A stretch of 64,000 nucleotides of DNA from Burkholderia contaminans. Lineage in GTDB: Bacteria; Pseudomonadota; Gammaproteobacteria; Burkholderiales; Burkholderiaceae. Positions 503 to 62,931 of this stretch are shown one piece after another; the stretch's first letter is position 1; every line of letters starts with the position of its first letter. The DNA is taken from assembly GCF_029633825.1 (NCBI RefSeq), contig NZ_CP090643.1, positions 1 through 64,000 of the forward strand. The letters are read 5' to 3'. A program made the translations under genes and the position numbers. The notes beneath the pieces were generated by a model, which did no database searches, had not been told where the DNA came from, and worked only from the letters and a program-made list of their open reading frames with translations.

Positions 503-546
503 GCTCCTTTTCGACCACCGCTAAGCGGTACAAGGAGCAAATCATG
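503..546 (+). promoter_or_regulatory. Shine-Dalgarno-sequestering nested hairpin leader (plus-strand copy)
   Basis: GCTCCTT (503-509) is exactly complementary to AAGGAGC (532-538), the ribosome binding site of the ATG at 544. Between them lie a bulge TTCGACC and a 5-bp hairpin ACCGC-TAA-GCGGT (517-529). This is the same architecture as the leaders of many minus-strand genes later in the window. Pairing is visible; regulation is inferred. Confidence 0.7.
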
Positions 547-2004
547 AATAGCAACATCGAGGGGAAAGCGCTGGAGACCGATGATTTTGTCACTCATCGC
601 AACGCTTGGCGTGATGCGCTGCTTATCGCGCTCGATAACGGTGGCTATACTGGCCAAGATGATGGGCCACTGAGTTGGGACATCTGTATCCAGGCGTTCG
701 ACGAGGCTTTCACGCTGTATGCACCGGGCTCGATTCCTGATGGCTTCAGGTCAAACCGCAAAGCTTGGCGTTTAGCGTTGACGATCGCCCGAGACCTTGC
801 CAAGGTTCAGGGACCGGATGTCGACGATAAGGCGTACTGGGAGCACGAGATTCGCGCATTCGATCGCGCGTTCGCGTCCGTCGGGATCAGCCTTGCTGAC
901 GGGAAACTGCCTGAGCTTACTGAGTTGGGCGTAGAAGACCTCCGATCTGGCGACAAGGTCGACTTGAACTCGTGCCCGTTTCTCAAGGAATCAGCTTCGG
1001 CCGACTTCGAGTTCGCTGTTGTCGAATCCGTGGAACTGGAAACCGCTGGCTGCGTCGTGGTCAGCTACGAGGACCATGCAGTTGTGGGGTATCCGGTGGG
1101 CTGTAAGCTGAAGGTTTCGTCAGAGACCCTTGGAAGCCGGAAGCTTCCGGAGACGTCTCATCATGCCGCCGGCACCGGGCCCCTCAGCGGCCAGGTCGAA
1201 GCGGCGCCAGACTTGATCGCGACTTTGGACAAGGCCGAGTCATTCATCGCCGGGTTCGAAGGCGATCAACTGCAGGACGGCATTGACGATCTGCTGCTAG
1301 AGATCCGGACCACGAAAGGGGTATTGAAAGCGCAACAGAAACAGCAGCAATCGAAGGTTGAAATGATACGGTCGGACGGTACTACGTTCCCCGAGCGCGT
1401 ACGATTCAACTGGGGCTTTCACGACGGTACGGCCGAGGCTGAACGCGCAAAAGTCCGTGACATGGAAAGCCATCAGGATCGGGCCTATGTACACGGCTAC
1501 GTCCGTGGCGTCCTGGCATGGAAGAACCTGGGCTACCGCCCCGAGTCGAGCGATGAGGCGTGGTCAGTGTACCAGGGGCATCCGCTCGTAAGTCCTGTAG
1601 CCGGCGAAGCGCTAGTAACGTTGGATATCAATTCCGATCCGGCGGTCATCGAAGCGCGCGTCGTCGCAGATTATCAGCGCATGCTGGGCAAGACCGTGCT
1701 GGTTCGGGTGGTCTCCGGCTATCGCGGTAGCGACTCGGTCGATATCAGGCTCCATCCGCCCGCCAAAGTCCGTATCGCAACGACCGAGGAGGCGAGTCTC
1801 AAGCACTGGAACGATGACTGGTGTGATCCGTACTGGGAAGTGGAGCTCGTCGAGCCTCATCGCCAGTTGGTTGGCATTCGCTCGACCTGGATTTCGGGTA
1901 GCTGCTACCACCTCAACGGGCAGCAGACGAACGCATCCGACGTCATTTCGGTAGTCAGCAACGAACCGAGCCGCCAGCCCGATTCACCGTCATCGTGCCC
2001 GTAA
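544..2004 (+). CDS. Unknown 486-aa protein with an internal N-terminal duplication
   Basis: No family recognised. The start is ATG 544, seven bases after a strong AAGGAG; an upstream in-frame GTG-type start at 463 would run through the palindrome and the leader hairpin and is unlikely. The N-terminal ~110 residues contain two copies of a helical unit (about 14-50 and 69-110), each with a RxAWRxAL core and an F(D/E)xAF end, so an ancient duplication is likely. The middle carries a small beta-rich segment (~120-190) and a short helical charged linker (~225-265). The C-terminal half is mixed. No signal peptide or membrane segment is seen. It is a single-gene unit: leader hairpin upstream, strong terminator downstream. 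Function unknown; carrying the common leader suggests it belongs to the element's core gene set. Confidence 0.75.
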   Translation: MNSNIEGKALETDDFVTHRNAWRDALLIALDNGGYTGQDDGPLSWDICIQAFDEAFTLYAPGSIPDGFRSNRKAWRLALTIARDLAKVQGPDVDDKAYWEHEIRAFDRAFASVGISLADGKLPELTELGVEDLRSGDKVDLNSCPFLKESASADFEFAVVESVELETAGCVVVSYEDHAVVGYPVGCKLKVSSETLGSRKLPETSHHAAGTGPLSGQVEAAPDLIATLDKAESFIAGFEGDQLQDGIDDLLLEIRTTKGVLKAQQKQQQSKVEMIRSDGTTFPERVRFNWGFHDGTAEAERAKVRDMESHQDRAYVHGYVRGVLAWKNLGYRPESSDEAWSVYQGHPLVSPVAGEALVTLDINSDPAVIEARVVADYQRMLGKTVLVRVVSGYRGSDSVDIRLHPPAKVRIATTEEASLKHWNDDWCDPYWEVELVEPHRQLVGIRSTWISGSCYHLNGQQTNASDVISVVSNEPSRQPDSPSSCP

Positions 2005-2021
2005 TCATCAAGCTGGAACCT

Positions 2022-2074
2022 GCCCGCCGTGTGCCCCCCCTTTCGAGGGGGATGCCGCGGCGGGCTTTTTCTTT
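2022..2074 (+). terminator. Rho-independent terminator
   Basis: GCCCGCCG (2022-2029) pairs with CGGCGGGC (2058-2065), enclosing a second CCCCC/GGGGG stem, followed by TTTTTCTTT. It lies 18 bases after the stop of the 486-aa gene. Confidence 0.85.
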
Positions 2075-3391
2075 GGTGCGCCGGGTTGGCGAAATCATGC
2101 GGTATCGCGAGCCCAAGAAAGGTGTGATGGGCCGGGCACTCTGGACGGTCATCTCGCTCGCGGCGCCAGAGCGTATGTTTTTCCATATCGTATGTTTCCC
2201 CATACGGTCTTCGCGTGCCAGGCGCCCCTTTGTCGTCATAGGCCAGGATGACTGCTCTCGCGGCAACGTGGCGGGTAGCGCGTGGGCGCGAAGCACCTCC
2301 GTCTCCGCTGCCAGATTGGCTAGGTACAGTACGTATTCATAGGCCGTCCGCGCGGTCCAGGCCGCCGGTCGGAAGAGGTTGCCCCTGAAACAGAGGTGCA
2401 GAACGATAGCGCCAATGACGCGAGAGGGCGGCTCGATGGCGCCGGCCGAGAATCCGGCCATCGGCCCGAGATTGAGCGGCTACTCAACGAGTGTCGCTGG
2501 GGGAAGAATGGGACTTATGCCCTGTAGTTATCACGGGTCGTTTGGAAGTCCGGCGACCCGTAGGAGGTGTTCAAAGCCGGGTCGTTTCAGTCGACCGCCA
2601 AGAGGTACCGCGGCCGCGCTGGAAAACGGCTGGAGGGCCGATACAGGCGCATGGGCGTTACGGCAGATGCGCCCACATACGCAAGCTTCATCCGAGGAGC
2701 CCGATCTCGGCCATCTGCAGCGGTGGCGACGAGATGCGATCGAGATGAGCTCAAACTGCGTAGGGCGAGTTTCGTTTTATGATCGTGCTATTGTGATAAG
2801 AAGGATTATCTCGATAGGCTTGATAGATTCCGCAAAAGCCCTTTGGGACGCGCTCTCAAGTGCGCTGGGGGGCGTTGTGTTCCGAATCCTGAAGCCGGTC
2901 GTTCTGAAGCGTCGGCGCCTGCGTGGCGGTGACCGGCGTGCTCGATTGCGGTGTGGATTGCGGCCGCGGATTCCGCGTAGCTGCAGCGTCCTGCGGCATT
3001 GATCGGTTGGGCACTTGAGCGTATCGGTGCGCCTGTACTCCGGCAGGGTCGTAGCGGTGCTGCGAGCACCGTTCTTCGTTGTGAGGTGCCGTCATCAAGG
3101 ATCCACCTCAGTCAATCATTGTTCCGCGCCGCCGGCAGCCCGTACGAGCAGCTCGCGCGATTGGGATCGCAGGGCGCTGACGGAGTATGTTGGTTCGACG
3201 GACGTGCACTCTGTGTTGCGGTACATTGACGGGGCGGAACCGGTCGCGCAGCACCGCATCGTGGCCGCATTCGATGCGTCCAATCAAATGAGCTCTTCGT
3301 CGGTGTCGTCACTACGCCATCGCGGAGAAGGGCGGGGCAGCCCTGAAGGACGCATGACACAAAACCAGACCTGCAAACGGGGTATGTACGT
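2075..3391. other. 1.3-kb stretch without a supported gene
   Basis: Open frames exist on both strands (the longest about 200 codons at 2379-3002), but none has a ribosome binding site, balanced protein composition or a recognisable motif, and they overlap one another. Two sites stand out. At 2171-2205 two imperfect copies of a CGTATGTTT..CCATA unit stand in tandem, the second (2189-2206) being a CGTATG/CATACG palindrome that could bind a regulator. Around 2770-2830 the DNA turns AT-rich with a GATAA/TTATC inverted repeat (2795-2810). It reads like decayed or regulatory DNA. Confidence 0.4.
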
Positions 3392-9835: not shown

Positions 9836-10194
9836 TTGTTTCTGCTCCTTACCTGTTTGTCGAGGTCGCGCAACGGCGCGCCCCATGTACCAAGAATCAG
9901 TCAATTTGGTTGTAGTGGCTAGATAGAAATGTCCGCTTTGGGGTTCGCGGAACGGCTGGAACTGACCCACGGCAGATACCGCGCCACTTGTTGCCCGGCA
10001 GCCGGACCGTGGGCCAGCCGGGCTGGTTTCCAGTCACAAATCGCGTCCAAGAAACCACCGCCTCGATGCCGGCGCGGCAGATCGCGCACTCGCGATCAGA
10101 CAGGCAGGCATTCGACGGCGACTTGACGCGTCGGCAAGCCTCGCGGACATCGCGGCTCACTGCGACAGCCGTCCGGATCTTTCTGGAAGAAAGT
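9836..10194. other. 360-base stretch between a small gene and the NACHT gene
   Basis: Open frames on both strands lack ribosome sites. A small CTTTC/GAAAG stem (10179-10193) follows the stop of the NACHT-type gene on the minus strand. Nothing else is supported. Confidence 0.3.
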
Positions 10195-13100
10195 CTAATT
10201 CTTGACGCGTGAGCGCCTTGCCTCCGGCTCCGGGCTCGTGCCTCGCTTACTTGTCTGTCTTGAGGATATTTTCTCCGAATTCTTCTGCCCGCGGGGCTTT
10301 CTCCTCACCCGTTCGTGTTGGGCTTGTCTCGCGCAGCTCGAGACATCAATGACCGCGACTTGGGGATACGGACCCGAGGCTGACGCCTGTCGTAACCGCT
10401 GAGCATGATCCTTCAACCGCTCTACAACTTCCGCAAAACTCAGGTGGCGGCGGTCGAGCAACTTCCAGCCCACGGGGCGCGGCGTCTGGTGGACGAGAAC
10501 CAGCAGCCCCTCCCGACAGTCCCGGGCGCGCAGATATTGCCCGCATAGCTGCGTTTCGAGGGCCGCTTCCAGTTGCGTGAGCGTCCATGTCTCCGCCACC
10601 TTGATCTCTACAGGGACCTTGGCAGCTGTTGCGCGCGCCGTGAGGACGATATCCGGCTTTTTCGCGTCAACCGTCTCGGGCTCGCGCTCGACCGAATACG
10701 ACCAGCCCTGGGTGAGACGCATGCGATCAGCGAGCCATGCTTGCACCGCGGCTTCGTCGGGAAGTGCACTCAAAGTCGAACCTTGTGCGAAGTCCGCGTG
10801 CAGCAGGTCGTGCTGGAGATCCTCGAGGCGCTGTAGCGCGAGCATCTGCAACTCGCGCCCTGTTGCGGGTACCCTCTCCCAGCGGCGTTCGAAGAGCAGT
10901 GCGTCGCCGCCAGCCCATGCGCTCATCTCCGAATCGAGGGCGGCCCGATCACGTTCCAACATTTCCAGACGCGCCTTGCGCACCGGGAAACCCGGCTCGG
11001 TCTCCAACTGTCGAAGCGCGTCATAGGTGGGACGCCCCGGAGTCTCTACCAGCCGCTTAAAGGCACCCGAGCGAGCTTCCTCGGCGTTATCGCGAAGATT
11101 CGGCGAGTAGACGCCCCCGTTCACACGATCGTTGTCCTCTTCCATGCGAACGGTGCGATAGGCCAAGATCACAAGTCGCAGGAGGGTCGGCATGTCGAGT
11201 TCGACGGCACGGCCAGGCGTCAACGAAAAACGTGAGCCAAATATCTGCGGTAGCACAGGCTCGACGAGAGCCGTCTTGCCGTCCTCGTCAAGCGTGGCGA
11301 GCTTGTCGACCAGCGCCTGTGTTGCGCCCGGCGCGTCGATCGCACAAGCGAAGCCGAGGTACTGTGCCGCGGTTGAAGAATCGACGACCGCTCCAAACCG
11401 TTCGATCGAGAGCGCGTATGCGCGCGGCAACATCTCAGCATTCAATCCCCGAAGCGCGATGGACAGGAGCGGTCGAAGCTGGGCGGGCCCAAGATCGTCA
11501 CGGGATTCGACTTCCCCCCAGACTGGGCCTGCGATTACGCGGGCCACGCTTTCGGGCCCGCGGTCGATGTAGTCGAGCGTGGGGCGGTGCGTCTCACCCG
11601 GGGTGTCGATCTCGCTGAGCACCTCGGTCATCAGCACGTCCCGGACAGGTGTGGGCCATGCGTTGGCGAGGCTTTCGATCCAGGGCGGTAGCTCGTTGAT
11701 TTCAATGGTCGCGTATTCGGCCGCGCGTACCGCTTCCTCAGCGCTCAGGTGGTTCGCCCATGAAGGGTCCTTCGCCGCTTCGATCGAGACTGCGGCGATG
11801 CCCAGCAGGTCCAGTTGCCCGATCATGTTTCGGTGTCCCAGAGTCCGTGCGCTTCTCAGGTCGGGCCGACGCTCGCGCCACACGCGGCGTGCCGCTTCGG
11901 CAAATGCGCAAGCAACCTTGTCCCCGGCGAGTTCCGCCAGCGGCGCCACGCTGCTAATCACGTAGCGATTGCGCTCCCGGTTTGCTTCGCGCAGGAGTTG
12001 CCAGAGGTCAAACAGCGCTTGGCTGACCTGGCCCGGCGCAGGTGGGAGGAGCTTGCCCAGTGGCTCCGGATCGTTGCGCAGCGCCTCAACAAAGTTGACC
12101 CAACTGTCCTCTCGCTCCGCGCGTTGCCGCTCGCTTTCTGCTTTGGCTTCCTCGAGCCGCCGCATGCTTTCCTCGAGTTCGGGCGAGTAAGCGGGAGGGC
12201 TCAACCATTCGTCGACCACCGCACGCATCTCGGGGCATGCTGTGGCGGCGCCTTCGATGCGAGCAAGGATGGCGTCAGGACGCCCTTGCCCAGCCCACAG
12301 ATCCATCGCAGCGCTTGCCGCGAGGCGCCGTTCACTTGGCGACTCGCGTGACGGACCGTCCGCCATCAGCCACTCCAGATCGTCCGGCCGCAGACCCGAA
12401 CGCCAGCCCGCGTACGCCATCTCGTGCAAGTTCTCGGGGCGTCTGCCTTGGAGAGTCCTGCTGGCCGACAAGGTCTGCGCCGCGCGCCAGAACGCGGCTC
12501 GCCGGCGTTCCGTGCTCTCGTGCAGTCGCCGAACGGCTTCGTCCAGCTTATCGTTGCGACTGCGTGGCATGCCGAGCGGCTCGCTGAAAAGCAGCACAAC
12601 GTCGATGGCGGCATCTGGTGCTTCGTCTGGCCCGGACATAGCGAGCCGGCGATCCGCGGCGGCCGCCAGCAGCAGATTGAGAGTGTCGCATCCCTCGCCG
12701 GGCTGCATGCCGTCGCGGGGGGCCGTGCAGGCATCAAGGTTGAGCAAGCCGCGTATAAGTCGGTCCAGATCCCTTGGGCTCGTGATCCGTGCTGCAAGGC
12801 TCGCACAAGACCATTTCAGGCTGTGCCCGCTGTCGTCGTCGACCTGCAGGGCGCCTGACGCGAACATGCCGACAAGGTCGTCGATGCTGATGAAGTCCGG
12901 AAAGAGAGCTTCGATGGCGGACGCTAGTACTTCGATTGGCACCGCTTCGGCTCGGCACTTGATGTGTTCCGCGTAGGCGCGGCGCTGGCTGTCGTCGCCC
13001 GCTGCCAGCAACGCTTGCCCGGCGAGATACAGGGTGCCCTGATCGCTGAACGAGCCGTACGCTGCGGATGAGGCAATATCAGCACATTCGCTCAAGGCCC

Positions 13101-29580: not shown

Positions 29581-29624
29581 GATGCTTCCCCTATGCCTCA
29601 GAAAGGCCGAATAAAACTGGGAAG
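29578..29624 (-). promoter_or_regulatory. Shine-Dalgarno-sequestering nested hairpin leader
   Basis: On the minus strand CTTCCC (29624-29619) pairs with GGGAAG (29590-29585) at the ribosome site. Bulge AGTTTTATTCG, then inner hairpin GCCT/AGGC (29595-29607). Confidence 0.7.
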
Positions 29625-29660
29625 CGAGGCCGGAGCCTTTCCCCAACCGAGTGGCTGGGG

Positions 29661-29680
29661 AAAAACCCGGGAGGGTTTTT
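29661..29680. terminator. Bidirectional terminator after the Rad50-like gene
   Basis: AAAAACCC (29661-29668) and GGGTTTTT (29673-29680) form a stem with U-runs in both directions, directly after the stop at 29691 on the minus strand. A second TTTCCCCA/TGGGGAAA stem lies beside it. Confidence 0.8.
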
Positions 29681-29690
29681 CGAGGGAGGC

Positions 29691-32831: not shown

Positions 32832-32874
32832 TCATGGTTCTCCTCTTGCCCGTCAGGGCGGTGATAAAGGAGGA
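32829..32874 (-). promoter_or_regulatory. Shine-Dalgarno-sequestering nested hairpin leader
   Basis: On the minus strand TCCTCCT (32874-32868) pairs with AAGAGGA (32847-32841) with one G-U pair, burying the ribosome site. Inner hairpin GCCC/GGGC (32848-32859) stacks directly on it; bulge TTATCACC. Confidence 0.75.
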
Positions 32875-32976
32875 CTGCGGCTGTGGCGAGGGCGCTACCT
32901 CGGCACAGCTGCAAGGTGTGCTGGTGGGAGGAATCGAAAGCCCCTTTAAAGAGGGACTTTCGATCTGTTGCGTGGT

Positions 32977-33129: not shown

Positions 33130-33168
33130 CGATGTCCTCTTAGCTGCCTGAAAGGCGTAGAAAAGAGG
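33127..33168 (-). promoter_or_regulatory. Shine-Dalgarno-sequestering nested hairpin leader
   Basis: On the minus strand CCTCTT (33168-33163) pairs perfectly with AAGAGG (33141-33136). Bulge TTCTAC, inner hairpin GCCT/AGGC (33146-33156). Confidence 0.75.
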
Positions 33169-33310
33169 CAATCGCTACAGGTCGGAGCGATTTTCATGAG
33201 CCGCAAGGGCACAGGAAAATCGAATAGGCTTCAACCCCGAGATTCGTTGAGAAGGACGCAGGCGGATGCGCGTCTAGTGCATTTCGAAGTTGGTCGGTCG
33301 GCGGTGAGGT

Positions 33311-33699: not shown

Positions 33700-33740
33700 G
33701 ATGAGCTCCCGAATGCCTAAAGAGGCGATTGAAAAGGAGC
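33697..33740 (-). promoter_or_regulatory. Shine-Dalgarno-sequestering nested hairpin leader
   Basis: On the minus strand GCTCC (33740-33736) pairs with GGAGC (33709-33705). Bulge TTTTCAATC, inner hairpin GCCT/AGGC (33715-33726). Confidence 0.7.
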
Positions 33741-33896
33741 GAGCGCGGGACGCTCAGCTTAGGCAAGTACCTTAGCAAAACACACCCGACTTCATGAAAC
33801 GAATGCAGAGATTGATGCCTGAAGAGAATGCCGATCGAACGGCTGGAGAAAGTCTATCAGAAACGACGAGAGGCGATCAAGGTGAAACATCGACCA

Positions 33897-33915
33897 CCCC
33901 CCCTTTAAGGGGGGG
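33897..33915. terminator. C7/G7 palindrome after the nuclease gene
   Basis: CCCCCCC (33897-33903), TTTAA, GGGGGGG (33909-33915), following the stop at 33942 on the minus strand. Very stable hairpin without a U-run. Confidence 0.5.
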
Positions 33916-33941
33916 CGGTTCGACATTGAGTTGAAGTTGAG

Positions 33942-35850: not shown

Positions 35851-35890
35851 GAGTGCTCCCGATTGCCACTACGTGGCTGATAAAAGGGAG
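35848..35890 (-). promoter_or_regulatory. Shine-Dalgarno-sequestering nested hairpin leader (Mre11-like gene)
   Basis: On the minus strand CTCCC (35890-35886) pairs with GGGAG (35860-35856), extendable by a G-U pair. Bulge TTTTATCA, inner hairpin GCCAC/GTGGC (35865-35877). Confidence 0.75.
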
Positions 35891-35902
35891 TTCAACAGCT
35901 TG

Positions 35903-35950
35903 CCGATGTCCCGATTCGAGGACATCGGGAAGCCTCCTCTTTCGAGGAGG
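35903..35950. repeat. Two adjacent palindromes upstream of the Mre11-like leader
   Basis: CCGATGTCC/GGACATCGG (35903-35928) and CCTCCTC-TTTC-GAGGAGG (35933-35950; GAAA tetraloop on the minus strand). They lie after the stop at 35976 of the upstream minus-strand gene. Confidence 0.6.
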
Positions 35951-35975
35951 AAACCCACGGCGGACGCCGTTTCCG

Positions 35976-37400: not shown

Positions 37401-37572
37401 GGTTGCTGCCTTCCTGGACGTGCGTCCGTTCGGGTTATCGATGGCAAAGTGCCTTTTCGATCCTCATGCCAGTGCTGGCGATTGATGGAAGGCGTGCGAA
37501 GAGCGCACGGCGATGGCGGTGCCATTGCCGTACATGGGAAGTTGCTGATGCGTTGCGATGAGGGTCAGGAAG

Positions 37573-37593
37573 CGACGGCCCTAGGGGCCGTCG
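37573..37593. terminator. 9-bp palindrome after the methyltransferase gene
   Basis: CGACGGCCC (37573-37581) and GGGCCGTCG (37585-37593) with a 3-base loop, 19 bases after the methyltransferase stop on the minus strand. No U-run. Confidence 0.55.
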
Positions 37594-37611
37594 TCCTGGA
37601 ATCTGAGTCTA

Positions 37612-38598: not shown

Positions 38599-39348
38599 TC
38601 AGGATGCGGAGGACTGCTTGGCGTTGGTCTTTCGCATCGACTCGCCCTTCAACGGCAGCTTGTGGGCCTGATGGACGAGCCGGTCGAGGATCGCGTCGGC
38701 GAGCGTCGGGTCCTGAAGCCAAGCGTGCCAGTGTTCCAATGGCAGTTGGCTGGTAATGATCGTGGAGCGCGTGCCAACGCGATCGTCGAGCACTTCGAGC
38801 AGATCGTTTCGGGCACCCTGATCGAGATCCTGCAGCCCCCAGTCGTCGAGCAGCAGGACGTCCATCTTGGCGAGCTGCGCGAGCCGCCGCGTGAAGCTGC
38901 CGTCGCCGTGAGCGATCTTCAATTCCTCGAACAGCCGGGCAACGCGGACGTACATCACGGAGAAGCCTTGTCGGCAGGCCTGCTGACCGAACGCGCACGC
39001 AATCCACGTCTTGCCTGCGCCGGTCGGCCCCGTCAGGATGAGGTTCTGCGCGTTACGGATCCAGTCGCAACCGGCAAGTGCGGCGACGACGCTCTTGTCG
39101 ATGCCGCGGCTCTGCCGGTATTCGATGTCCTCAATGCAGGCCTGGGGATTCTTGAGTTTCGCAGACTTCAGCAGCCGTTCGAGCCGCCGGGTATCGCGCC
39201 AGGCGAGCTCGCGCTCGACGACCATGCCGAAGCGCTCTTCGAACGACAGGCTGGTGCTGGCGGTCAACGCCGTTTGTTCCTCGAACGCGCGGGCCATGCC
39301 GTCGAGCTTCAGGGACTTGAGCTGGGTTAAGGTTTGCTGCATCAACAT
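38599..39348 (-). CDS. istB: IstB helper ATPase of IS21
   Basis: The 249-residue AAA+ ATPase carries Walker A GPTGAGKT and Walker [13 protein letters not shown], which fit IstB. IstB assists the transposase by binding target DNA. ATG 39348 follows AAGGAGG, 15 bases after the istA stop, so it is the second gene of the IS operon. Full length. Confidence 0.97.
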
Positions 39349-39363
39349 TGCGACCTCCTTGGG

Positions 39364-40914
39364 TCAGTGGTAATACTCGGGCCCGCGCACGTTCTCGTGA
39401 TCGGGCGAATGCCATTCGGCGGGCGGAATCGGGAGCATCGGCTGTCGGTCCAGGCCGGATTCGAGGATCGACAGCACGGAGCGGCGGGTCGGTGAGCCGA
39501 TCACGAGCGCCCGCTGGCAGGCGGCTTCCAGCCGTTCCTTGCCGTACTTGCGCGAGAGCGACAGCAGTCCGAGACAGGCACGGTACCCCATCTCGGGATG
39601 GGGCCGGTTGGTCAACAGATGTTTGACGATCGCCTCGGCACCGGGACCGACCGAGGCGCCCCAGTTCAACAACCGGCCTGGCGTCCATTCCATGTGGGCG
39701 CGGTGCGCCGCCGGCATATGCTCAGGCAACGTCGTATGCTTGTTCCGGAGTCGGCTGCGGGCGTGGGCGGCAACGCGCTTGCCGCGGTGCAAGATCTCGA
39801 CGCCGTGGCGCGTCACGCGGGCATAGACTTCCTGGCGCACGAGGCTGTGCGGGACGCTGTAATAGTGGTGATCGACTTCGACGTGGTAGTCGATGTTGAC
39901 GCGGCACTTCACGAAGGTCGCGATCTCGTATCGGCGTGTCGGCAACGGGCGCAGCGCCGGGCGGTCTAGCCGCTCGAACCATTCGCGGCGGTTGCCGTCG
40001 AGCTTCTTGAACGGACGCCGGTTCAGGTCGGTGATCAGCTTGCCGATCGCCTTGTTCAGCTCGGCCAGGCTGTAGAAGCGGTGGTTGCGCAGCCGTGCGA
40101 GGATCCAGCGCTCGACGATCTGCACGCCGACCTCGACCTTCGCCTTGTCCTGCGGCTTGCGCGGCCGCGCCGGCAACATGGCGGTCGCGTAGTGGTTCAC
40201 GAAGTCCTGCGTGGTGTTGCCCAGCACCGGTTCGTACCGGTCCGCCTTGGCGATCAATGCCTTGGGGTTGTCGGGCACCAGCAGCTCGGGGACACCGCCG
40301 TAGAATTCCAACGCGTCGATCAGGCTGCCGATCCAGTCGGGCATGGCCTCCGAACGCGTCGCACATGCATAGGTGTAGTTCGAGGCGCCGAGGACGGCCA
40401 CGAACACGTGAGCCTTGAACGCGATGCCGCCGTCGCGACCGAGGATCGGCACAGTTTGCCCGGCGAAGTCGGCGAACAGCTTCTCGCCGGCGCGGTGTTG
40501 CTGGCGCATCGAGCGCTTCAGCGCCGCAGCCCAGTCCTTGTACCGCTGGCAGAACTGCGTATAGCGATAGGTGCGTTGGCCTGGGTGAGCCTCGACGTAC
40601 TCCTCCCAGAGCAGTTGCAGCGTCACGCCCTTGCGGCGCAGGTCGCGGTGCATCGCCGCGTAATCCGGTTCGACCCGGCGGGTCGGGACCGCGGTTTCCT
40701 CCGGCAGGTCCAACCTGATCTCGAGCTCGTCGTCGGCGAGCGGTTCGACGGTAGCCCAGTCGAGGCCCGCCGCGCTCGCGCGGGCGGCGTATGCCGAGAT
40801 GGCGCCGACGCTGATGCCGATCGCGCGGCTGATCTGGCGGTGCGACAGGCCGCACGCCCACTTCAGCCGCAGTACTTCCTTCAGTTTGCGCATGCTCATC
40901 CGATGTGCCGGCAT
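39364..40914 (-). CDS. istA: IstA transposase of IS21
   Basis: The 516-residue DDE transposase has an N-terminal helix-turn-helix (HRQISRAIGISVGAISAY), the first Asp in LFADFAGQTVPI, the second in LVPDNPKALI and the Glu in KVEVGVQIVERW, followed by a Mu-type C-terminal beta domain. ATG 40914 follows AGGGGA; a TTG one codon upstream is less likely. The gene is intact, so the element should be mobile. Confidence 0.97.
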   Translation of the reverse strand: MPAHRMSMRKLKEVLRLKWACGLSHRQISRAIGISVGAISAYAARASAAGLDWATVEPLADDELEIRLDLPEETAVPTRRVEPDYAAMHRDLRRKGVTLQLLWEEYVEAHPGQRTYRYTQFCQRYKDWAAALKRSMRQQHRAGEKLFADFAGQTVPILGRDGGIAFKAHVFVAVLGASNYTYACATRSEAMPDWIGSLIDALEFYGGVPELLVPDNPKALIAKADRYEPVLGNTTQDFVNHYATAMLPARPRKPQDKAKVEVGVQIVERWILARLRNHRFYSLAELNKAIGKLITDLNRRPFKKLDGNRREWFERLDRPALRPLPTRRYEIATFVKCRVNIDYHVEVDHHYYSVPHSLVRQEVYARVTRHGVEILHRGKRVAAHARSRLRNKHTTLPEHMPAAHRAHMEWTPGRLLNWGASVGPGAEAIVKHLLTNRPHPEMGYRACLGLLSLSRKYGKERLEAACQRALVIGSPTRRSVLSILESGLDRQPMLPIPPAEWHSPDHENVRGPEYYH

Positions 40915-41197
40915 CAACCTGTCCCCTAAAAAGGATCAAGGCTAACGCCCGTCGTTGATCACATGCGCAACACCACCGCCGAGCCGGAACGGCTATCCCG
41001 TTTCGGTCGCGTGATCAGCTGTTTCGGTTCGCTGATCACTCATTCCGGGAACGTGATCACCCGCTTCGGCAAGATGATCGCTCGTTTCGGAAACCGGTGA
41101 TAAGTGATCACCTTCGACCGAAACGACCGATCACCATCAATCGGAACCACTGATCACGTTCAACCGAAATCGCTGATCACGCTCGCCGAAATACGCA

Positions 41198-41205
41198 ACA
41201 TGATG
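41198..41205. repeat. Target-site duplication, right copy
   Basis: ACATGATG directly after the IS21 right end. Confidence 0.9.
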
Positions 41206-41254
41206 CTCATAATTTATCTCCAGTCAATGCCAGTTCAGGCGTGAAAAACCGGAG
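41206..41254 (-). promoter_or_regulatory. Stranded leader and start codon of the split methyltransferase gene
   Basis: On the minus strand CTCCGGT (41254-41248) pairs with ACTGGAG (41224-41218; one G-U pair), with bulge TTTTCAC and inner GCC/GGC stem (41229-41240), then seven bases and ATG 41210. This is the common leader. The reading frame breaks at the IS boundary after ATGAGCATCATGT, so it now starts a nonsense or fusion peptide into the IS. Confidence 0.75.
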
Positions 41255-41322
41255 TGCCGAGGGCACGGCCATACTCGAAGCATGGGCGTGCATAGGGGCC
41301 GCGCGAAAGCGGGTTGGGAAGT

Positions 41323-42262: not shown

Positions 42263-42303
42263 GATGATCTCCTGGTGCCGTAGCGGCGCATAAAACTGGA
42301 GAT
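42260..42303 (-). promoter_or_regulatory. Shine-Dalgarno-sequestering nested hairpin leader
   Basis: On the minus strand ATCTCC (42303-42298) pairs perfectly with GGAGAT (42272-42267). Bulge AGTTTTATGC, inner hairpin GCCG/CGGC (42277-42287). Confidence 0.75.
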
Positions 42304-42329
42304 TCTTCCCTGGCACATGTCGTACCTGG

Positions 42330-42832: not shown

Positions 42833-42873
42833 TTACTCTCCATTGCCGAATCGGCGCGTAAAAACTTGGAGAG
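42830..42873 (-). promoter_or_regulatory. Shine-Dalgarno-sequestering nested hairpin leader
   Basis: On the minus strand CTCTCCA (42873-42867) pairs perfectly with TGGAGAG (42842-42836). Bulge AGTTTTTACGC, inner hairpin GCCG/CGGC (42845-42855). Confidence 0.8.
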
Positions 42874-42898
42874 CGGAGGAGGGTCTGAGGGCAACCCG

Positions 42899-43369: not shown

Positions 43370-46177
43370 CTACTGGCACGCTTCGCACTCGTCGAAGCCA
43401 GGATCGCCGGGACGCATCGTACAGACGGGACCCGCGGGTTCGTCGTCCGCGAGGACGTTCGCGATTGCAACGGCATTGAGCTGGCCAGTGAACCGGCCAG
43501 TCGATTTTTCTACATGCGTCGCTGCCTGCGTTCGCAGGTAGTAGGTCGACTTCAGTCCGCGCAGCCATGCAAGACGATACAGCTTGTCAAGTTTCGGACC
43601 ACTCGGATCTTCCATGTACTGGTTCAACGACTGGGCCTGATCAATCCAGACTTGCCGCCTGGCCGCACATTCCACGAGCCATGTCGGGTCAATCTCGAAG
43701 GCGGTCGCGTACAATGCACGCAGGTCCGCCGGAATCCGCGAGATCTTCGCCAACGAACCGTCGAACTGCTTCAGGTCCATAACCATCATCGGATCCCAAA
43801 GCCCTGCTTCCCTCAGATCCCTCCACATCCGCCGATTCACAACAGTGAATTCGCCGCTCAAGTTCGACTTCACATAGAGGTTCTGGTAGGCCGGCTGGTA
43901 TTGCTCTGAGGCCACCATGATGTTAGCGATGGTGGCCGTTGGCGCGATCGCCACACAGTTCGAGTTGCGCATGCCGTGTTTCCGAATCTCCTCCTTCAGA
44001 TCAGACCACTCTTGAGCGAGGCGAACCGTGATTTCGAACCCGATGGACACACTGCGCTCTTCCTCGAGCATCCGTACCGATTCGTGCGGAAGAATCCCCC
44101 GATCCCACAGAGACCCCTTGAACGACGAGTACGCGCCACGTTCCTTTGCTAGCTCGTTGGACGAGCGGTAGGCGAAGTAGGACACCAGCTCCTGGACTTC
44201 GCTGGACAGCTCGACCGCACGGTCGGATGCGTACGGCACGCGCATTTCCTGCAGCAAGTCATGGAACCCGACGACGCCGAGGCCAACCGGGCGATGCTTC
44301 AGGTTTGCGTTCCTCGCCTTTTCAACTGCGTAGAAGTTGAGGTCGATTACGTTGTCCAGCATTCGCATTGCGGTGCGAATCGTCTTCTTAAGCTTCGCGC
44401 GATCGATCTGCGCGACGCCGCCCTCGCCTACCACCAGATGCTTTGACAGGTTCACGCTGCCCAGGTTGCAGACCGCGATCTCCGTCTCGCTGGTGTTGAG
44501 CGTGATTTCCGTGCACAGGTTCGAAGAATGCACGACACCCACGTGCTGCTGCGGCGAGCGAATATTGCACGGGTCCTTGAAGGTAATCCAGGGATGTCCC
44601 GTCTCGAAGAGCGTGTTCAGCATGCTGCGCCACAGTTGAACCGCCGGCAACTGCTTGTGCAACTTGATCTCGCCCCGCGCGGCGGCCGCCTCGTATGCGA
44701 CATACTTCGCCTCGAAGACCTTGCCGTAGCTGTCGTGAAGGTCCGGAACGTCCGACGGCGAGAAGAGCGTCCAGCTACCACCCTCTTCCACGCGCTTCAT
44801 GAACAGGTCCGGAATCCAGTTCGCCGTGTTCATGTCGTGCGTGCGACGCCGATCATCGCCCGTATTCTTGCGCAACTCGAGAAACTCCTCGATGTCGAGA
44901 TGCCATGTCTCGAGATATGCGCAGACAGCACCCTTTCGCTTCCCGCCCTGATTGACTGCGACGGCCGTATCGTTCACGACCTTCAGGAACGGCACGATGC
45001 CTTGGGACTTGCCGTTCGTGCCTTTGATATGCGATCCGAGGGCGCGCACGTTCGTCCAGTCATTGCCGAGCCCGCCGGCGAATTTCGATAGCAGAGCGTT
45101 GTCCTTGAGCGAATCGTAGATGCCTTCGAGATCGTCCGACACCGTTGTGAGGTAGCAGGACGACAACTGCGGTCGGCGGGTTCCGGAGTTGAACAGTGTT
45201 GGCGTCGACGACATGAATTCCAACGAGCTGAGGACGCGATAAAACTCAATCGCTCGCTCCTCGCGCTCAATCTCGTTCAGCGACAACCCCATCGCCACTC
45301 GCATCAAGAGCCACTGCGGTAGCTCCACTCGAACCTCCCCGATGTGCAACAGGTATCGGTCGTAGAGCGTGCTGATCGCCAACAGATCGAACTGTGAGTC
45401 TCCCCCAGGATTGATCGCTTCGGCCAGTCGCGCGAGGTCAAAACGGCCAAGCCGCTCGTCGAGAAGCTCAGCGTCGATAGCCTTTCGCACGTATCCCTCG
45501 AATGCGTCTCGGTAGTACGCGACGGTGTCGGCCGGCGGGATCTCCCTGCCAGCAACCTCCTGGAACAGGTCACCGATCATGAGGCGGGCCGCGAGCCACG
45601 ATGCGTCCGGGTGCGTTTCGATTCGCTGACGCACCTCCAGCTTGACGGCGGAGAATAGCGCGTGCATCGGCATTCCCTTGTACCCCTGCTTCAGGGCTCC
45701 CTCAGCTATTTCTTCGAGTGGCGGTAAGTCCAGACCCACTGCGTAGGGCGCCAGCAAAGCAACGATGGTGCTGACTCCAACTACCGTAGATTCACCGTCA
45801 ACCCGGACCACCTCCCGCGTGAGGTCGCAGGTCGCTCCCGTCGGCTGTCGCTGCTCTTTATGCTTCTCACGGTAGACGATATAGGCACGTGCAAGTCCGT
45901 GGTCAATCCGCATTAGGGCAAGCTCGACGTGGTCTTGAATGTCCTCAATAGGGATACTTCCATCTGGCTTCCGTGCGATCCGTTCGACCACCGTATCGGT
46001 CACCGAATCGACCAAATCGCGGTCAGCCTGGGACAGTTGCAACGCCCCTTTCCCCTTCAGTCCACGCACATCCAGCGTGTTGTTAAGCACGGCGGCACGG
46101 ATCTTCGACGGATCAAAGGCGACCGCATCCCCGTTCCGCTTGACGACGGTCTTACTGATGACCTGTTCCGATTTCAT
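43370..46177 (-). CDS. nrdA: Class Ia ribonucleotide reductase, large subunit
   Basis: The 935-residue enzyme reduces ribonucleoside diphosphates to deoxyribonucleotides. An N-terminal ATP-cone (~8-100, VVKRNGDAVAFDPSKIRAAV) provides allosteric control by ATP/dATP. The catalytic barrel shows LSSCYLTTVSDD (first active-site Cys), SNLCTEITLN (Asn, radical Cys, Glu) and AVCNLGSVNLS (second Cys). The C-terminus DECEACQ is the redox Cys pair that regenerates the site. ATG 46177 follows TTGGAGG. The leader has a GACGC/GCGTC hairpin (46196-46208) but no evident partner for the ribosome site. It is the last gene of an nrdB / ATP-cone protein / nrdA cluster, supplying dNTPs for replication of the element. 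Confidence 0.97.
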   Translation of the reverse strand: MKSEQVISKTVVKRNGDAVAFDPSKIRAAVLNNTLDVRGLKGKGALQLSQADRDLVDSVTDTVVERIARKPDGSIPIEDIQDHVELALMRIDHGLARAYIVYREKHKEQRQPTGATCDLTREVVRVDGESTVVGVSTIVALLAPYAVGLDLPPLEEIAEGALKQGYKGMPMHALFSAVKLEVRQRIETHPDASWLAARLMIGDLFQEVAGREIPPADTVAYYRDAFEGYVRKAIDAELLDERLGRFDLARLAEAINPGGDSQFDLLAISTLYDRYLLHIGEVRVELPQWLLMRVAMGLSLNEIEREERAIEFYRVLSSLEFMSSTPTLFNSGTRRPQLSSCYLTTVSDDLEGIYDSLKDNALLSKFAGGLGNDWTNVRALGSHIKGTNGKSQGIVPFLKVVNDTAVAVNQGGKRKGAVCAYLETWHLDIEEFLELRKNTGDDRRRTHDMNTANWIPDLFMKRVEEGGSWTLFSPSDVPDLHDSYGKVFEAKYVAYEAAAARGEIKLHKQLPAVQLWRSMLNTLFETGHPWITFKDPCNIRSPQQHVGVVHSSNLCTEITLNTSETEIAVCNLGSVNLSKHLVVGEGGVAQIDRAKLKKTIRTAMRMLDNVIDLNFYAVEKARNANLKHRPVGLGVVGFHDLLQEMRVPYASDRAVELSSEVQELVSYFAYRSSNELAKERGAYSSFKGSLWDRGILPHESVRMLEEERSVSIGFEITVRLAQEWSDLKEEIRKHGMRNSNCVAIAPTATIANIMVASEQYQPAYQNLYVKSNLSGEFTVVNRRMWRDLREAGLWDPMMVMDLKQFDGSLAKISRIPADLRALYATAFEIDPTWLVECAARRQVWIDQAQSLNQYMEDPSGPKLDKLYRLAWLRGLKSTYYLRTQAATHVEKSTGRFTGQLNAVAIANVLADDEPAGPVCTMRPGDPGFDECEACQ

Positions 46178-46431
46178 GGAAACCTCCAAAAATATGACGC
46201 TGCGCGTCGTTGTAAAGCGGTCGGAACGTAAATGGCGTTGTTACTCGGCAAGCAGCGCTTGCGGGGTAATAGCGGAAGGGAGTGGCGGTCCGACGAGCAG
46301 CTGGATACTTCCAGCTGCAGCGTCTTCTCGCGATTTCGATGGGGGAATTTCAGAAGGGTACTTCTCGTCGCTTCAGTGCCACCCGGCGGCCCGTGAAACT
46401 GCGCTACCTCACCGCGCGACTGAGCAACCGG
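46178..46431 (-). other. 254-base intergenic region before nrdA with palindromes
   Basis: GCAGCTGGA-TACT-TCCAGCTGC (46297-46318) is a perfect 9-bp stem, and AGAAG/CTTCT stands near 46350-46365. Both lie between the ATP-cone gene stop and the nrdA leader. I see no NrdR-box pair. Such separation suggests nrdA is transcribed or processed independently of the upstream genes. Confidence 0.4.
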
Positions 46432-47073
46432 TCACGTACGGCCGGCTCGTTTCCCGTGATCTCGAAGCGGCTCAAGCCCCGCCCCGACATGCATGATTGC
46501 CATTTCAATGAGATTGGTAACGTAGTCAGCTTCGACGATGTCACCCGAGTACCGGCCGACGCGCACTGCGATCGCGTGGGCAATCTGGTCGACCATTTCC
46601 GACCCGACCGGCATCAAGCTCAATGCGCCCAGCTCCTTCATCTCCTGCTCGTCCTTCGTGACCGTGTCGACGGCTGATCGAACCTGAGAAGGATCATAGG
46701 GGGTGACGGTGCCGTCCATCGACCTGACGAGTTTCTGCGAACTCGACTTGGCTCCTTCGATACGCGCATATGAGACGCAACCGAAATCAGCGGTTGTGAG
46801 CAGCTCCGCGCGGTAACCACTTCCGTCAAGTGCTACGGCCTTTGCGCCTTTGTATTCCGGCTTCAGCACATAGTAGGCGTGGTAGTCCTCGCCGGGCTTC
46901 TCGAACCCAGTCTCCTCACAGACGTCGTAGTACATGGGAACGTTGTTGCACTTCGCCATGCCCATGTTTTTACCCCAAGGCTCGTCCTTTGCGCTCCCCC
47001 AAAACTTGCAGGTCCCGCAGTTACCGGTTGCGATACCCGAGGCTTGGGCCACTTTATTCGATGTGTTTTCCAT
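46432..47073 (-). CDS. Zinc-binding plus ATP-cone protein in the nrd cluster, 213 aa
   Basis: The N-terminal half has C19-G-T-C22-K-F-W-G, then C42, C52 and C99 (DFGCVSYARIEG), a pattern of small metal-binding domains of the 'CGTCKFW' type. The C-terminal half (~115-200) is an ATP-cone: KLVRSMDGTVTPYDPSQVR, helices, then AHAIAVRVGRYSG. ATP-cones bind ATP/dATP in RNR large subunits and in the repressor NrdR, which also joins a zinc ribbon to an ATP-cone. This protein differs from NrdR in length and zinc motif, so it may be an analogue: a nucleotide-sensing regulator or RNR partner. ATG 47073 follows GGGAG. It lies between nrdB and nrdA, and nrdA keeps its own ATP-cone. Confidence 0.65.
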   Translation of the reverse strand: MENTSNKVAQASGIATGNCGTCKFWGSAKDEPWGKNMGMAKCNNVPMYYDVCEETGFEKPGEDYHAYYVLKPEYKGAKAVALDGSGYRAELLTTADFGCVSYARIEGAKSSSQKLVRSMDGTVTPYDPSQVRSAVDTVTKDEQEMKELGALSLMPVGSEMVDQIAHAIAVRVGRYSGDIVEADYVTNLIEMAIMHVGAGLEPLRDHGKRAGRT

Positions 47074-47122
47074 ATTCAAGATTCTCCCGTAGTGACGCAA
47101 GATGGTCATTTCAAAACGGGGG
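47071..47122 (-). promoter_or_regulatory. Nested hairpin leader, weaker copy (ATP-cone gene)
   Basis: On the minus strand CCCCCGT (47122-47116) pairs with ACGGGAG (47090-47084) with one mismatch. Inner stem TGAC/GTCA (47093-47108) has an 8-base loop; a TTTT follows the first arm as in the others. Confidence 0.5.
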
Positions 47123-47195
47123 TACGGTTTCCTACCGTGGTACTTGGCAGCGGACCGCTGGCAAGTAAGGTATGAAGTTGGCGCTGGCAGACGGG

Positions 47196-47214
47196 TGCCG
47201 GCGGGATGCCGGCA
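47196..47214. terminator. 7-bp palindrome after nrdB
   Basis: TGCCGGC-GGGAT-GCCGGCA, 30 bases after the nrdB stop on the minus strand. A CAGCGG/CCGCTG stem lies farther on. No U-run. Confidence 0.5.
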
Positions 47215-47244
47215 GCCACGTCTTTCAACGGTTATGAAGCGAGT

Positions 47245-48354
47245 TTACTCCCACAAGAGTGCGCCGCCCGTCTGGTAGTCAATGACGCGCGTCTCGAAGA
47301 AATTCCGTTCCTTCTTCAGGTCGATCATTTCGCTCATCCACGGGAACGGGTTTTCCTCGTTCGGGTACAGTGGGTCGAGGCCGATCTGAGCGCATCGTCG
47401 ATTGCAGATGTACCGCAGGTATCCCTTGAACATTGGTGCGTTCAAGCCCAGCACGCCGCGCGGCATCGTATCCTCCGCGTACGCGTATTCCAGGCCGACC
47501 GCTGTCTGGAAGAGGTCACTGATCTCCGCGCGGAAGTCAGTGTTCCACAGCTCAGGATTCTCGAGTTTGATCGCGTTGATCAGGTCGATGCCGAAGTTGC
47601 AGTGCATCGACTCGTCGCGCAGGATGTACTGATATTGCTCTGCAGCACCGGTCATCTTGTTCTGGCGGCCGAGCGCGAGGATCTGCGTGAACCCGACATA
47701 GAAGAACAGGCCTTCCATGATGCAGGCGAACACGATCAGCGACTTCAGCAGCTTCTGATCCGCTTCGAGCGTACCGGTCTTGAAGGCCGGATCCGTCAGC
47801 GTGTGGATGAACGGGATCAGGAATTCGTCCTTCGCGCGGATCGACGTGACCTCGTGGTACGCGTTGAAGATCTCGCCTTCGTCGAGACCGAGCGATTCGA
47901 CAATGTATTGGTACGCGTGCGTGTGGATCGCCTCTTCGAACGCCTGGCGCAGCAGGAACTGCCGGCATTCGGGCGCCGTGATGTGGCGGTACGTGCCGAG
48001 CACGATGTTGTTCGCCGCGAGCGAATCGGCCGTCACGAAGAAGCCGAGGTTGCGTTTCACGATGCGGCGCTCGTCCTCGGTCAGACCGTTCGGGTCCTTC
48101 CACAAAGCGATGTCGCGGGACATGTTGATTTCCTGCGGCATCCAGTGGTTCGCGCAACCGGCCAGATACTTTTCCCACGCCCACTTGTACTTGAACGGCA
48201 CCAGCTGATTGACGTCAGTCTGGCCGTTGATGATGCGCTTGTCGGCGATGTTCACACGCGCCGAGCTGCTCGCGCCGGCCGGATTCCCATTTTGGGTGGC
48301 GGGTACGACATGCTCCGAATTCGCCAGTGTCTCGTCCCAATTAAGTGCTGTCAT
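47245..48354 (-). CDS. nrdB: Class Ia ribonucleotide reductase, small subunit
   Basis: The 369-residue ferritin-like protein provides the tyrosyl radical. Iron ligands and the radical Tyr appear as Asp110 (FVTADS) and E141-x-x-H144-x-x-x-Y148 ([10 protein letters not shown]); the second ligand set is in [11 protein letters not shown] and [10 protein letters not shown]. The C-terminus ([11 protein letters not shown]) has the usual peptide that docks to NrdA. ATG 48354 follows CGGAG within a nested leader; the frame to 48417 reads through it. Order nrdB first, nrdA last with an extra gene between is unusual for proteobacteria (normally nrdAB). Confidence 0.97.
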
Positions 48355-61951: not shown

Positions 61952-62331
61952 GAAGTCACAACCGCGGCCGCGGGCGGCTTGGCGGAAACTTGCGGCGCCA
62001 AAGTGAGCTGCCCCGGGAAAGGGCCTTCGGTGATCTTCGGGAGAACTTGAACCAAGACCCGCGATACTCCGAACGGCTTTCCGTCTGAACCGGTCACTTT
62101 GCCCTTGAGGACAAGCGTCTGGAACTCGCAGATTGCAACGTCGTCGCTTTGCGCTTTGATTTCTCCCTCTGCGATCGCCGAGGGCGCATATTCCGGTGCC
62201 AACGAGCCCGCACGCCAGAAGTACTCGGGCGACGCATCAGACTCACGACGGACGAAGAGGCGGGCCTCCAAGGAGGCGCATTGCGTCCGGATGATGCACA
62301 GCACGTAGGCGGAGCCAATAGCTATTGCCAT
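61948..62331 (-). CDS. Membrane-anchored small protein, 127 aa
   Basis: The N-terminal ~20 residues (MAIAIGSAYVLCIIR) are hydrophobic enough for a membrane anchor or uncleaved signal. The rest is a beta-rich domain (AICEFQTLVLKGKVTGSDG, SRVLVQVLPKI). A CCGACCC/GGGCCGG hairpin (62354-62372) upstream and a short TTCC/GGAA pairing at the ribosome site make a weak copy of the common leader. Coupled to the following 79-aa gene. Confidence 0.55.
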   Translation of the reverse strand: MAIAIGSAYVLCIIRTQCASLEARLFVRRESDASPEYFWRAGSLAPEYAPSAIAEGEIKAQSDDVAICEFQTLVLKGKVTGSDGKPFGVSRVLVQVLPKITEGPFPGQLTLAPQVSAKPPAAAVVTS

Positions 62332-62397
62332 GATGATGTTTCCAGGATAGAGACCGACCCAGGACGGGCCGGTTGTTGCGGGAAGAGTCCGAGGGAT

Positions 62398-62862
62398 TTA
62401 ATGCAACCGCACTTCGATCGAGCGCGGCGTGCAGAGAGCACGTAGGAGCATGTGAAGGACGGCGCGACGTTGCTCGAGGCGTGGACCACCAATGCAGTAG
62501 TCGACCAGGTTCAATTCGCTGTCGGTGATGACCGTGCCGTAGATGATCTGGGAGCTCGATGTCTTCCGGTGAAACTGGAAAACTCTCGCCTCGTCGGAAT
62601 CGAACTGCGGCGAGTTCAGGATGGTTCGCACGATGAAGTCCGGATACTCGAACTGACACTGCGTTCTGAGTTCGCGGAGATCGCGCTGTTGCAGCTGCCC
62701 GACGTCAAACACTTGGCCGGGAGAGTTGATCGGATCGCGGCACCGGTGCCTGGCGGACACGAACTTCGTGACCTGCCCCGGGCCTACAACCTCTTTCACT
62801 TGAATGACTTTCAGGATCCGTTCGTACGAACGGTTCCCGATATCAGGAACGGGAATTTCCAT
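62398..62862 (-). CDS. Unknown protein, 154 aa
   Basis: ATG 62862 follows GGAGG at ideal spacing; a GTG four codons upstream is the alternative. The protein starts with a strand-rich segment (MEIPVPDIGNRSYERILKV) and ends with a helical basic region (LEQRRAVLHMLLRALC). No signal, membrane segment or catalytic pattern. First gene of a minus-strand run; divergent from the AAA+ gene. Confidence 0.55.
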   Translation of the reverse strand: MEIPVPDIGNRSYERILKVIQVKEVVGPGQVTKFVSARHRCRDPINSPGQVFDVGQLQQRDLRELRTQCQFEYPDFIVRTILNSPQFDSDEARVFQFHRKTSSSQIIYGTVITDSELNLVDYCIGGPRLEQRRAVLHMLLRALCTPRSIEVRLH

Positions 62863-62931
62863 TTCGTCCTCCACTTTTCACTTGATGCCGCCAGCGCGGC
62901 TGCTAGAAAGAGGACGCCATCCAATGGATGG
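62860..62931 (-). promoter_or_regulatory. Shine-Dalgarno-sequestering nested hairpin leader preceded by a palindrome
   Basis: On the minus strand CGTCCTC (62916-62910) pairs perfectly with GAGGACG (62871-62865). Bulge TTTCTAGCA, inner hairpin GCCGC/GCGGC (62887-62900). A CCATCC/GGATGG palindrome (62917-62931) abuts the outer arm. Confidence 0.75.

Follow-up and report, generated by a model that had tools for sequence, protein, structure and literature searches.

A Shine-Dalgarno-hiding leader family on four related megaplasmids and its putative role as a translational operator

Introduction

Megaplasmids carry hundreds of genes of unclear use, and how their hosts bear the cost of these genes is an open question. 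The window, a stretch of Burkholderia contaminans DNA (bases 1-64000 of contig C4, NZ_CP090643.1, in a genome of 9.44 Mb and seven contigs), is part of a megaplasmid. An earlier note, made from its letters, had listed 16 genes whose leaders appeared to bury their own ribosome-binding site in nested hairpins of one element-wide RNA family. Is there such a family, how far does it extend, and what could it do? The Shine-Dalgarno (SD)-hiding leader family is real, its structure is well supported and it is undescribed in the literature searched. Comparison at the sequence level establishes its parts and their order, the covariation of the hairpin next to the start codon (HP2), its conservation between orthologues and a distribution almost restricted to a single plasmid family. 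The modestly favoured interpretation is that the leader is a plasmid-family translational operator, which would place a set of genes under the control of one trans-acting factor.

A covarying hairpin at the ribosome site

A rule-based scan of 1227 ATGs recovered 22 nested arm-and-hairpin leaders at threshold, compared with one in mononucleotide-shuffled leaders and six at an equal number of random positions, bearing out the claim that the layout exceeds chance. A simple pattern, run over the entire plasmid, found many further copies beyond the window. MAFFT alignments misplaced the inner stem; a first covariance model, R1, was built from six leaders of similar geometry, two of them window leaders (33699 and 35850, named by the start position of their genes). 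Run over the whole plasmid, R1 scored 28 sites at E≤0.25, and these gave a second model, R2 (28 sequences, 11 pairs). The leader feature reaches far outside the window, across much of the plasmid.

The main R2 search covered 1.39 Mb, made up of four family plasmids, described below, and four segments of 20 kb each from other genomes. At E≤0.3 it yielded 173 matches, 166 of them on the four family plasmids, and R2 had no match in 1.10 Mb of control DNA (host chromosome, pBN2 and an Azonexus plasmid). Searching the replicon and its relatives with a covariance model of the leaders, as the earlier note had suggested, led to four related megaplasmids.

The HP2 statistics were taken from the best 150 of the 173 matches, four of the 173 being sites re-read on the other strand. 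In HP2 an anti-SD arm pairs with the ribosome site, and this outer helix encloses a constant internal loop and a stem with GCC..GGCA. The outer arm CUCC/GGAG, which is the SD, is nearly invariant, and the flanking pairs vary on both sides (UA, GC, AU, CG). Among the best 150 the fourth inner pair is CG in 40, GC in 17, UA in 15 and AU in 13. Over these rows 89.4% of cells are paired, a percentage that leans upward because the structure itself was used to choose the rows. In 97/150 the outermost pair does not form. Double-sided pair changes number 133 against 39.6±5.2 after shuffling, and none of 500 shuffles reaches that count. Covariation is 0.191 compared with 0.066 for shuffled rows, and at most 0.060 when the partner is slid by one to three columns. 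Arms and inner stems do covary between genes, as had been read from the window, and also between orthologues.

The unpaired positions are also constrained, with T in 99, 93 and 81% of rows in the U stretch, A in 76% at the AAC and A in 98% after GGC. Several genes thus share a structured SD site whose unpaired bases are fixed. As these bases are conserved in unrelated genes, they suggest a common reader.

A start codon with an open reading frame (ORF) of at least 30 amino acids (aa) lies 1-7 nucleotides (nt) past HP2 in 146 of the 150 rows, the spacing being 4 nt in 92. The corresponding counts are 506/3000 for random positions and 889/9504 for an ATG after GGAG sites in general. The coding starts of leader genes are biased, with ATGAA and A's at +10/+11. 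In 41 B. contaminans leaders, the 70 nt that immediately precede HP2 contain no position-fixed word.

Leaders of the window

Seven of the 16 listed leaders are supported in a window scan with R2, run with filters off (Table 1). Five of these (544, 35850, 33699, 32831 and 42262, E 2.7e-8 to 1.2e-5) match by construction because they belong to the R2 training set; R1, without training on them, also finds 544, 42262 and 32831. The 33129 leader is borderline, and the remaining eight split into five undecided and three without support. Leaders 32117, 26796, 62862, 29580 and 22785 reach only E 1.6 to 4.5 with R2, level with stray matches in the same list, 29580 and 26796 also being weak in R1 (E 1.0 and 3.6). 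R2 has no match over the ribosome sites of 41848, 48354 and 47073. The shared 5' order can be seen directly in most of the listed leaders; in that of 22785 it differs by eye, with a longer unpaired stretch on the 3' side. The primase leader (26796) scores only E 1.9 with R2 in the window, but the leader of its remote homologue on a Cupriavidus plasmid is matched clearly (E 8.5e-4).

Table 1. Leader features in the window, with the evidence for each.
Feature	Position	Strand	Basis
Predicted extended -10 promoter TGG-TATTCT, 544 gene	362..370	+	Positional information upstream of 55 HP0 copies; letters
HP0, 5'-terminal hairpin AGCCGTTTAGTCGGCA at predicted +1, 544 gene	377..392	+	Exact match
HP1 of 544 leader, 11 pairs, mismatch-free in this copy	466..492	+	Folds, letters, family statistics
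HP2, SD-sequestering nested hairpin, gene start 544	501..539	+	R2 E 2.7e-8 (trained); R1 E 1.1e-4 (untrained)
HP0 of 33699 gene	33829..33844	-	Exact match
HP1 core of 33699 leader, GCTAAGG..CCTAAGC	33757..33776	-	Folds, letters
HP2, gene start 33699	33704..33742	-	R2 E 2.4e-7 (R1 and R2 training sets)
HP1 of 35850 leader, one C.C mismatch	35897..35934	-	Folds, letters
HP2, start 35850 (calcineurin-like phosphoesterase)	35854..35893	-	R2 E 4.1e-8 (R1 and R2 training sets)
HP2 of 155-aa gene, start 32831 or ATG four bases upstream	32838..32875	-	R2 E 5.1e-6 (trained); R1 E 0.06
HP2, gene start 42262	42267..42304	-	R2 E 1.2e-5 (trained); R1 E 0.027
HP2, start 42832, longer unpaired 5' stretch	42836..42874	-	R2 E 0.013
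HP2, gene start 41210	41216..41257	-	R2 E 0.041
HP2-like, borderline, gene start 33129	33135..33170	-	R2 E 0.18

The supported leaders serve a phosphoesterase (34504-35850, Pfam), a gene annotated as a methyltransferase in the public record and five genes without a Pfam match. R2 has no match at the leader of nrdB (48354), which encodes the small chain of ribonucleotide reductase, and the suggestion that replication, repair and nucleotide genes are switched together is not supported. Both chains of this enzyme, large and small, are plasmid-borne at window 43373-48354. The gene behind the 41210 leader (window 41160-41210) stops after 16 codons next to an IS21 pair at 38602-40917, and the public plasmid record has a 180-aa ORF at this site; the truncation is probably due to insertion of the insertion sequence.

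A family of four megaplasmids

The window from 28000 to 38000 is 100% identical to B. contaminans plasmid NZ_CP073663.1 (395,748 bp). This plasmid carries conjugation-type, partition, replication and DNA-metabolism genes along with many small genes without annotated function, and is typed as 'non-mobilizable' by MOB-suite, the conjugation-type genes notwithstanding. In the window's own genome, all 29 R2 matches at E≤0.1 lie on contig C4, as do 18 of 19 R1 matches at E≤10. With the compensating changes described above, this upholds the proposal of one element-wide RNA family that pairs the ribosome site.

Among 398 Burkholderiaceae genomes, at least 10 have an R2 match at E≤0.02, and four have at least 13 matches, each on a single contig. 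These counts are lower bounds because the many-genome searches score a subset of the first-look candidates (109 per genome for the relatives, at most 16 for the 398 genomes). Besides the B. contaminans contig, the four comprise G804:C9, G743:C8 and G505:C11, which appear to be from Paraburkholderia fungorum LMG 16225, Cupriavidus necator UYPR2.512 (plas2) and Pandoraea terrigena, respectively. Their coupling-protein genes are 92-94% identical to the B. contaminans copy, and the shared backbone of the four megaplasmids places them in one plasmid family. The leader is conserved in 43 of 50 orthologue pairs (>35% identity and more than half the length) between 32 B. contaminans leader genes and the other three plasmids; the 35850 and 42262 HP2s are retained in orthologues of all four. 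Orthologous leaders differ in arms and inner stems by matched changes on both strands of the helix, for example inner GUCC/GGAC in one leader versus GCCC/GGGC in those of its orthologues.

Outside this family the leader is sparse. A pattern scan of viral contigs found three stretches, whose whole records gave one R2 match (E 0.0071). The same kind of scan over genome contigs found 35 stretches, eight on the P. fungorum contig, two on C. necator plas2 and 25 singles, where about 14 would be expected by chance on our own estimate and the pattern recovers only five B. contaminans plasmid sites. A search of 60 genomes of relatives gave at least two weak singles besides the own genome. A further 14 whole plasmid records, reached through homologues of SbcC (six), primase (three) and the 544 gene product (five), are mostly motif-free; clear matches (two) occur only on the Cupriavidus sp. 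USMAA2-4 plasmid, and another record gives E 2.86. One of three genomes chosen by SbcC has two matches (E 0.24 and 0.68). A single HP2 is present on each of two contigs that are probably from Cupriavidus (L253:12351-12390, minus strand; L255:10047-10085, plus strand). The DNA upstream of the two copies is much alike, and HP0, the hairpin described below, was not seen in the 110 nt upstream of either. These lone copies suggest that the leader may also travel singly.

SD burying was also surveyed over all called genes. An SD helix of at least 6 bp occurs in 44/230 genes of the window plasmid (19.1%), compared with 7.4% in shuffled sequence. It is rejected as a habit of the host chromosome (1/84 called genes vs 6.7% shuffled, a rough yardstick from a home-made caller and few genes) and as one of all megaplasmids (five others at 6.0-10.0% vs 6.5-7.8% shuffled). 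An SD pairing probability above 0.8 is a poor separator of replicons, with 0.296 for the window plasmid vs 0.252 shuffled.

Parts upstream of HP2

The earlier note missed two parts upstream of HP2, termed HP1 and HP0, the latter with its promoter, as well as an RNase III encoded by the plasmid family itself. Folding of the 48 nt that precede HP2 gives z<-1.5 in 27/41 B. contaminans leaders, compared with 4/60 random sequences. Defined as a stem of at least 9 pairs with one 1x1 mismatch, HP1 is found in 74/150 leaders, compared with 46/600 for random 60-mers. Of the 74 copies, 48 have C.C as the mismatch and 51 are separated from HP2 by 5-8 nt.

HP0 is a 16-nt word, AGCCGTT-N3-TCGGCA, found by k-mer enrichment. 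Strict copies number 55 on the four family plasmids, and there are none in the 1.6 Mb covered, an incomplete part, of five other plasmids. Forty of the 55 lie less than 420 nt before a leader gene, 37 of these at 116-194 nt. Allowing two mismatches, HP0 accompanies 58/144 leaders. Its variants with stem changes retain pairing in 6/6 cases, five as G-U. A sigma-70-like extended -10 with a trace of a -35 stands immediately 5' of HP0. Transcription is therefore predicted to start at HP0, which would place this hairpin at the very 5' end of the message.

In a side observation, a sigma-70-family factor of 226 aa (NZ_CP073663.1 14421-15101) is conserved on all four family plasmids and has no match among the ORFs of five other plasmids.

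A candidate translational operator

For the manner in which HP2 would switch, and for the factor and its action, we infer the following scheme. A good part of the genes have a predicted sigma-70-like extended -10 promoter of their own and an mRNA predicted to begin with HP0. In about half of the leaders HP1 comes next, with its mostly C.C 1x1 mismatch, and then HP2, which would keep translation low by default. One RNA-binding trans-acting factor would recognise the unpaired UUU...AAC and the A after GGC and either open or lock HP2, creating a translational regulon. The conserved unpaired bases are not needed for plain SD hiding and therefore count for such a factor. The leading candidate is the RNase III that the plasmids themselves encode, which would either bind or cut the leader. 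A bolder version, in which the plasmid's divergent RNase III reads the shared leaders as a private post-transcriptional regulon and switches the whole set independently of the host, is considered doubtful.

Nearest-neighbour folding of 59 full leaders predicts that the SD is 97-99% paired from 20 to 60 °C. If the anti-SD arm is removed by starting the RNA 28 or 16 nt ahead of the SD, the predicted unpaired fraction of the SD rises to 0.33 and 0.56. These predictions make default repression likely and a thermometer unlikely.

A closed SD would also suit passive damping, in which the hairpins set low, uniform translation and stabilise the 5' end of the mRNA with no dedicated factor. This explanation is unlikely but is helped by several observations. 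Low translation would mean a low cost for many cargo genes, the SD is predicted to be closed at all temperatures, and the searches for other regulators gave little. No long RNA complementary to CTCCTTTTCAAC was found on the element. Exact GTTGAAAAGGAG and TTGAAAAGGAG are absent outside the antisense of leaders, with scattered 9-mers; partners that are short, mismatched or chromosomal may still exist. CsrA/RsmA is rejected, as a CsrA family protein is found in 0/4 host genomes (the control search was positive in 3/14 genomes) and GGAG sits in the outer stem of HP2 and not, as GGA, in hairpin loops. ProQ/FinO and cold-shock proteins are rejected as factors common to the plasmids, since ProQ occurs on one of four family contigs (P. 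fungorum) and a cold-shock domain on one (C. necator), which leaves room for chromosomal copies of both. Against passive damping, unrelated genes share the conserved unpaired bases of the internal loop and the conserved A behind GGC, and the recurring HP1 with its C.C mismatch and HP0 are unneeded for passive hiding.

A second alternative is a dedicated RNase III switch, in which the plasmid gene (rnc) cuts or binds HP1/HP2 and so alters SD access or mRNA life, as in lambda cIII, whose translation is promoted by RNase III binding according to PMC3328962. Ribonuclease III is among the ORFs common to the four plasmids and unmatched in five other plasmids. The P. fungorum product has both the RNase III and the double-stranded RNA (dsRNA)-binding domains and scores above the NCBI TIGR02191 cut-off. 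Its C. necator and Pandoraea counterparts are 88% and 85% identical to it, compared with 51% for the host chromosomal enzyme. The HNERLEFLGDS region (with a single F-to-L change in Pandoraea) is conserved, as is ILADAFEA; both have a catalytic role. At E≤1e-80 a close rnc is found in four of the 398 genomes, exactly those with at least 13 leader matches; among plasmid records, an rnc more than 60% identical was found only in NZ_CP073663. On three plasmids, Pandoraea being the exception, the top-scoring R2 match is that of the first leader gene to follow rnc, or its 3' piece, at a distance of 267-1016 nt.

The gene is intact on three plasmids and interrupted in B. contaminans, where its pieces (C4:76478-77011 and C4:86988-87221, about 10 kb apart and beyond the window; 9986-10516 and around 395509-395748 on NZ_CP073663.1) separate the catalytic from the dsRNA-binding part. 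The insertion is an arsenic-resistance (ars)/integrase/GmtX integrative element. HP1, with some 11-14 pairs, is short compared with classical RNase III sites, scattered leaders occur without a plasmid-type rnc, and the co-occurrence is equally explained by a shared backbone. A dedicated switch of this kind is held to be improbable, and RNase III as reader of the leaders is put forward as a hypothesis.

A family of RNA thermometers, in which HP2 melts as the temperature rises, had been one option of the earlier note and is now very unlikely. A buried SD with a U-rich stretch is typical of thermometers, but the predicted unpaired fraction of the SD rises only from 0.011 to 0.028 between 20 and 60 °C. 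Most of the U's lie within the internal loop and not opposite the SD, and the conserved unpaired bases would be left unexplained. Together, these bases and the closed SD fit a shared trans-acting factor better than a thermometer. Finally, DNA-level elements (operators or recombination sites) that merely resemble hairpins are hardly credible, for although HP0 is nearly invariant, near-palindromic and at the predicted +1 where an operator could sit, both sides of the HP2 arms and inner stems change, HP0 stem changes retain pairing, and HP2 is tied in position to the start codon.

The translational operator read by one trans-acting factor is the interpretation retained here, and several points weigh against it. 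By the rule used, HP1 is missing from 76/150 leaders, and HP0 from 86/144. The excess of SD pairing over all called plasmid genes is moderate, and the percentages of paired cells lean upward for the reason given above. With respect to the candidate factor, leaders persist in B. contaminans despite the split rnc, and the co-occurrence of rnc and leaders is confounded because the four plasmids share much backbone. Clear leaders are also seen singly or in pairs without a close rnc on the USMAA2-4 plasmid and in one further genome (G779).

Significance

One covarying translational leader on dozens of genes predicts which genes are jointly controlled on plasmids of four bacterial genera, and the covariance model provides a means to annotate true gene starts on family plasmids. 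To our knowledge, no plasmid-wide regulon read by a plasmid-borne RNase III has been reported before; if this enzyme is indeed the reader, the present one would be the first of its kind. Neither phrase, plasmid-encoded RNase III nor plasmid-borne RNase III, turned up in the open-access literature searched.

Related leaders and known systems

The statement that no described family has this layout stands within the sources searched. Scanning the window with the Rfam covariance models gives nothing at E≤1, and in three family loci (60 kb) nothing exceeds the threshold, with one sub-gathering match (Atu_Ti1, E 0.71). No description of the SD-hiding leader was found in open-access papers, a 2017 survey of 224 RNA motifs being covered via Rfam only.

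Other Burkholderiales and Rhodocyclales megaplasmids carry a different leader of similar plan, with a CCC..CGGGG hairpin followed by an SD-pairing hairpin such as CTGCTTC..GGAGCAG. By eye this dialect precedes about a dozen genes on pBN2 and several on the Azonexus plasmid. It was seen in five loci (L048, L051, L027, L028 and L030), once adjoining the DUF3085 RNA. Bulk SD pairing on plasmids with this dialect is at or slightly above shuffled levels (21/225 vs 7.4% and 16/160 vs 6.6%). The Rfam sbcD RNA (RF01757), which has no match in the window, lies upstream of an sbcCD-like cluster on pMOL28 (L027:1962-2116), pBcn842-1 (L028:1440-1577) and a Robbsia plasmid (L031:60-204).

Comparison with known systems places the family among leaders that govern access to the ribosome site. 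FourU and ROSE thermometers likewise pair the SD with an anti-SD arm in the leader, whereas in HP2 the U's are mostly in the internal loop and melting at 20-60 °C is not predicted. The Rfam DUF3085 RNA (RF02959) is also a cis-regulatory RNA on a betaproteobacterial megaplasmid (L051:159-217), before a gene with an SD-pairing hairpin by eye, but it differs in sequence and structure and is absent from the window at E≤1. In the phage lambda cIII and N leaders, whose translation depends on RNase III, leader structure governs access to the ribosome site as it would here. That system involves one or two genes and a host enzyme, while in the present one each plasmid bears a common motif on dozens of genes, with a plasmid-borne RNase III as candidate reader. 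The phage RegA and coat-protein operators share with HP2 a short structured SD site with fixed unpaired bases on several genes. Those operators are bound by a protein, for which rnc is here a candidate only, whereas the leader family described here is present in more copies, spans several megaplasmids and includes HP0 and HP1 in addition to the hairpin at the ribosome site.

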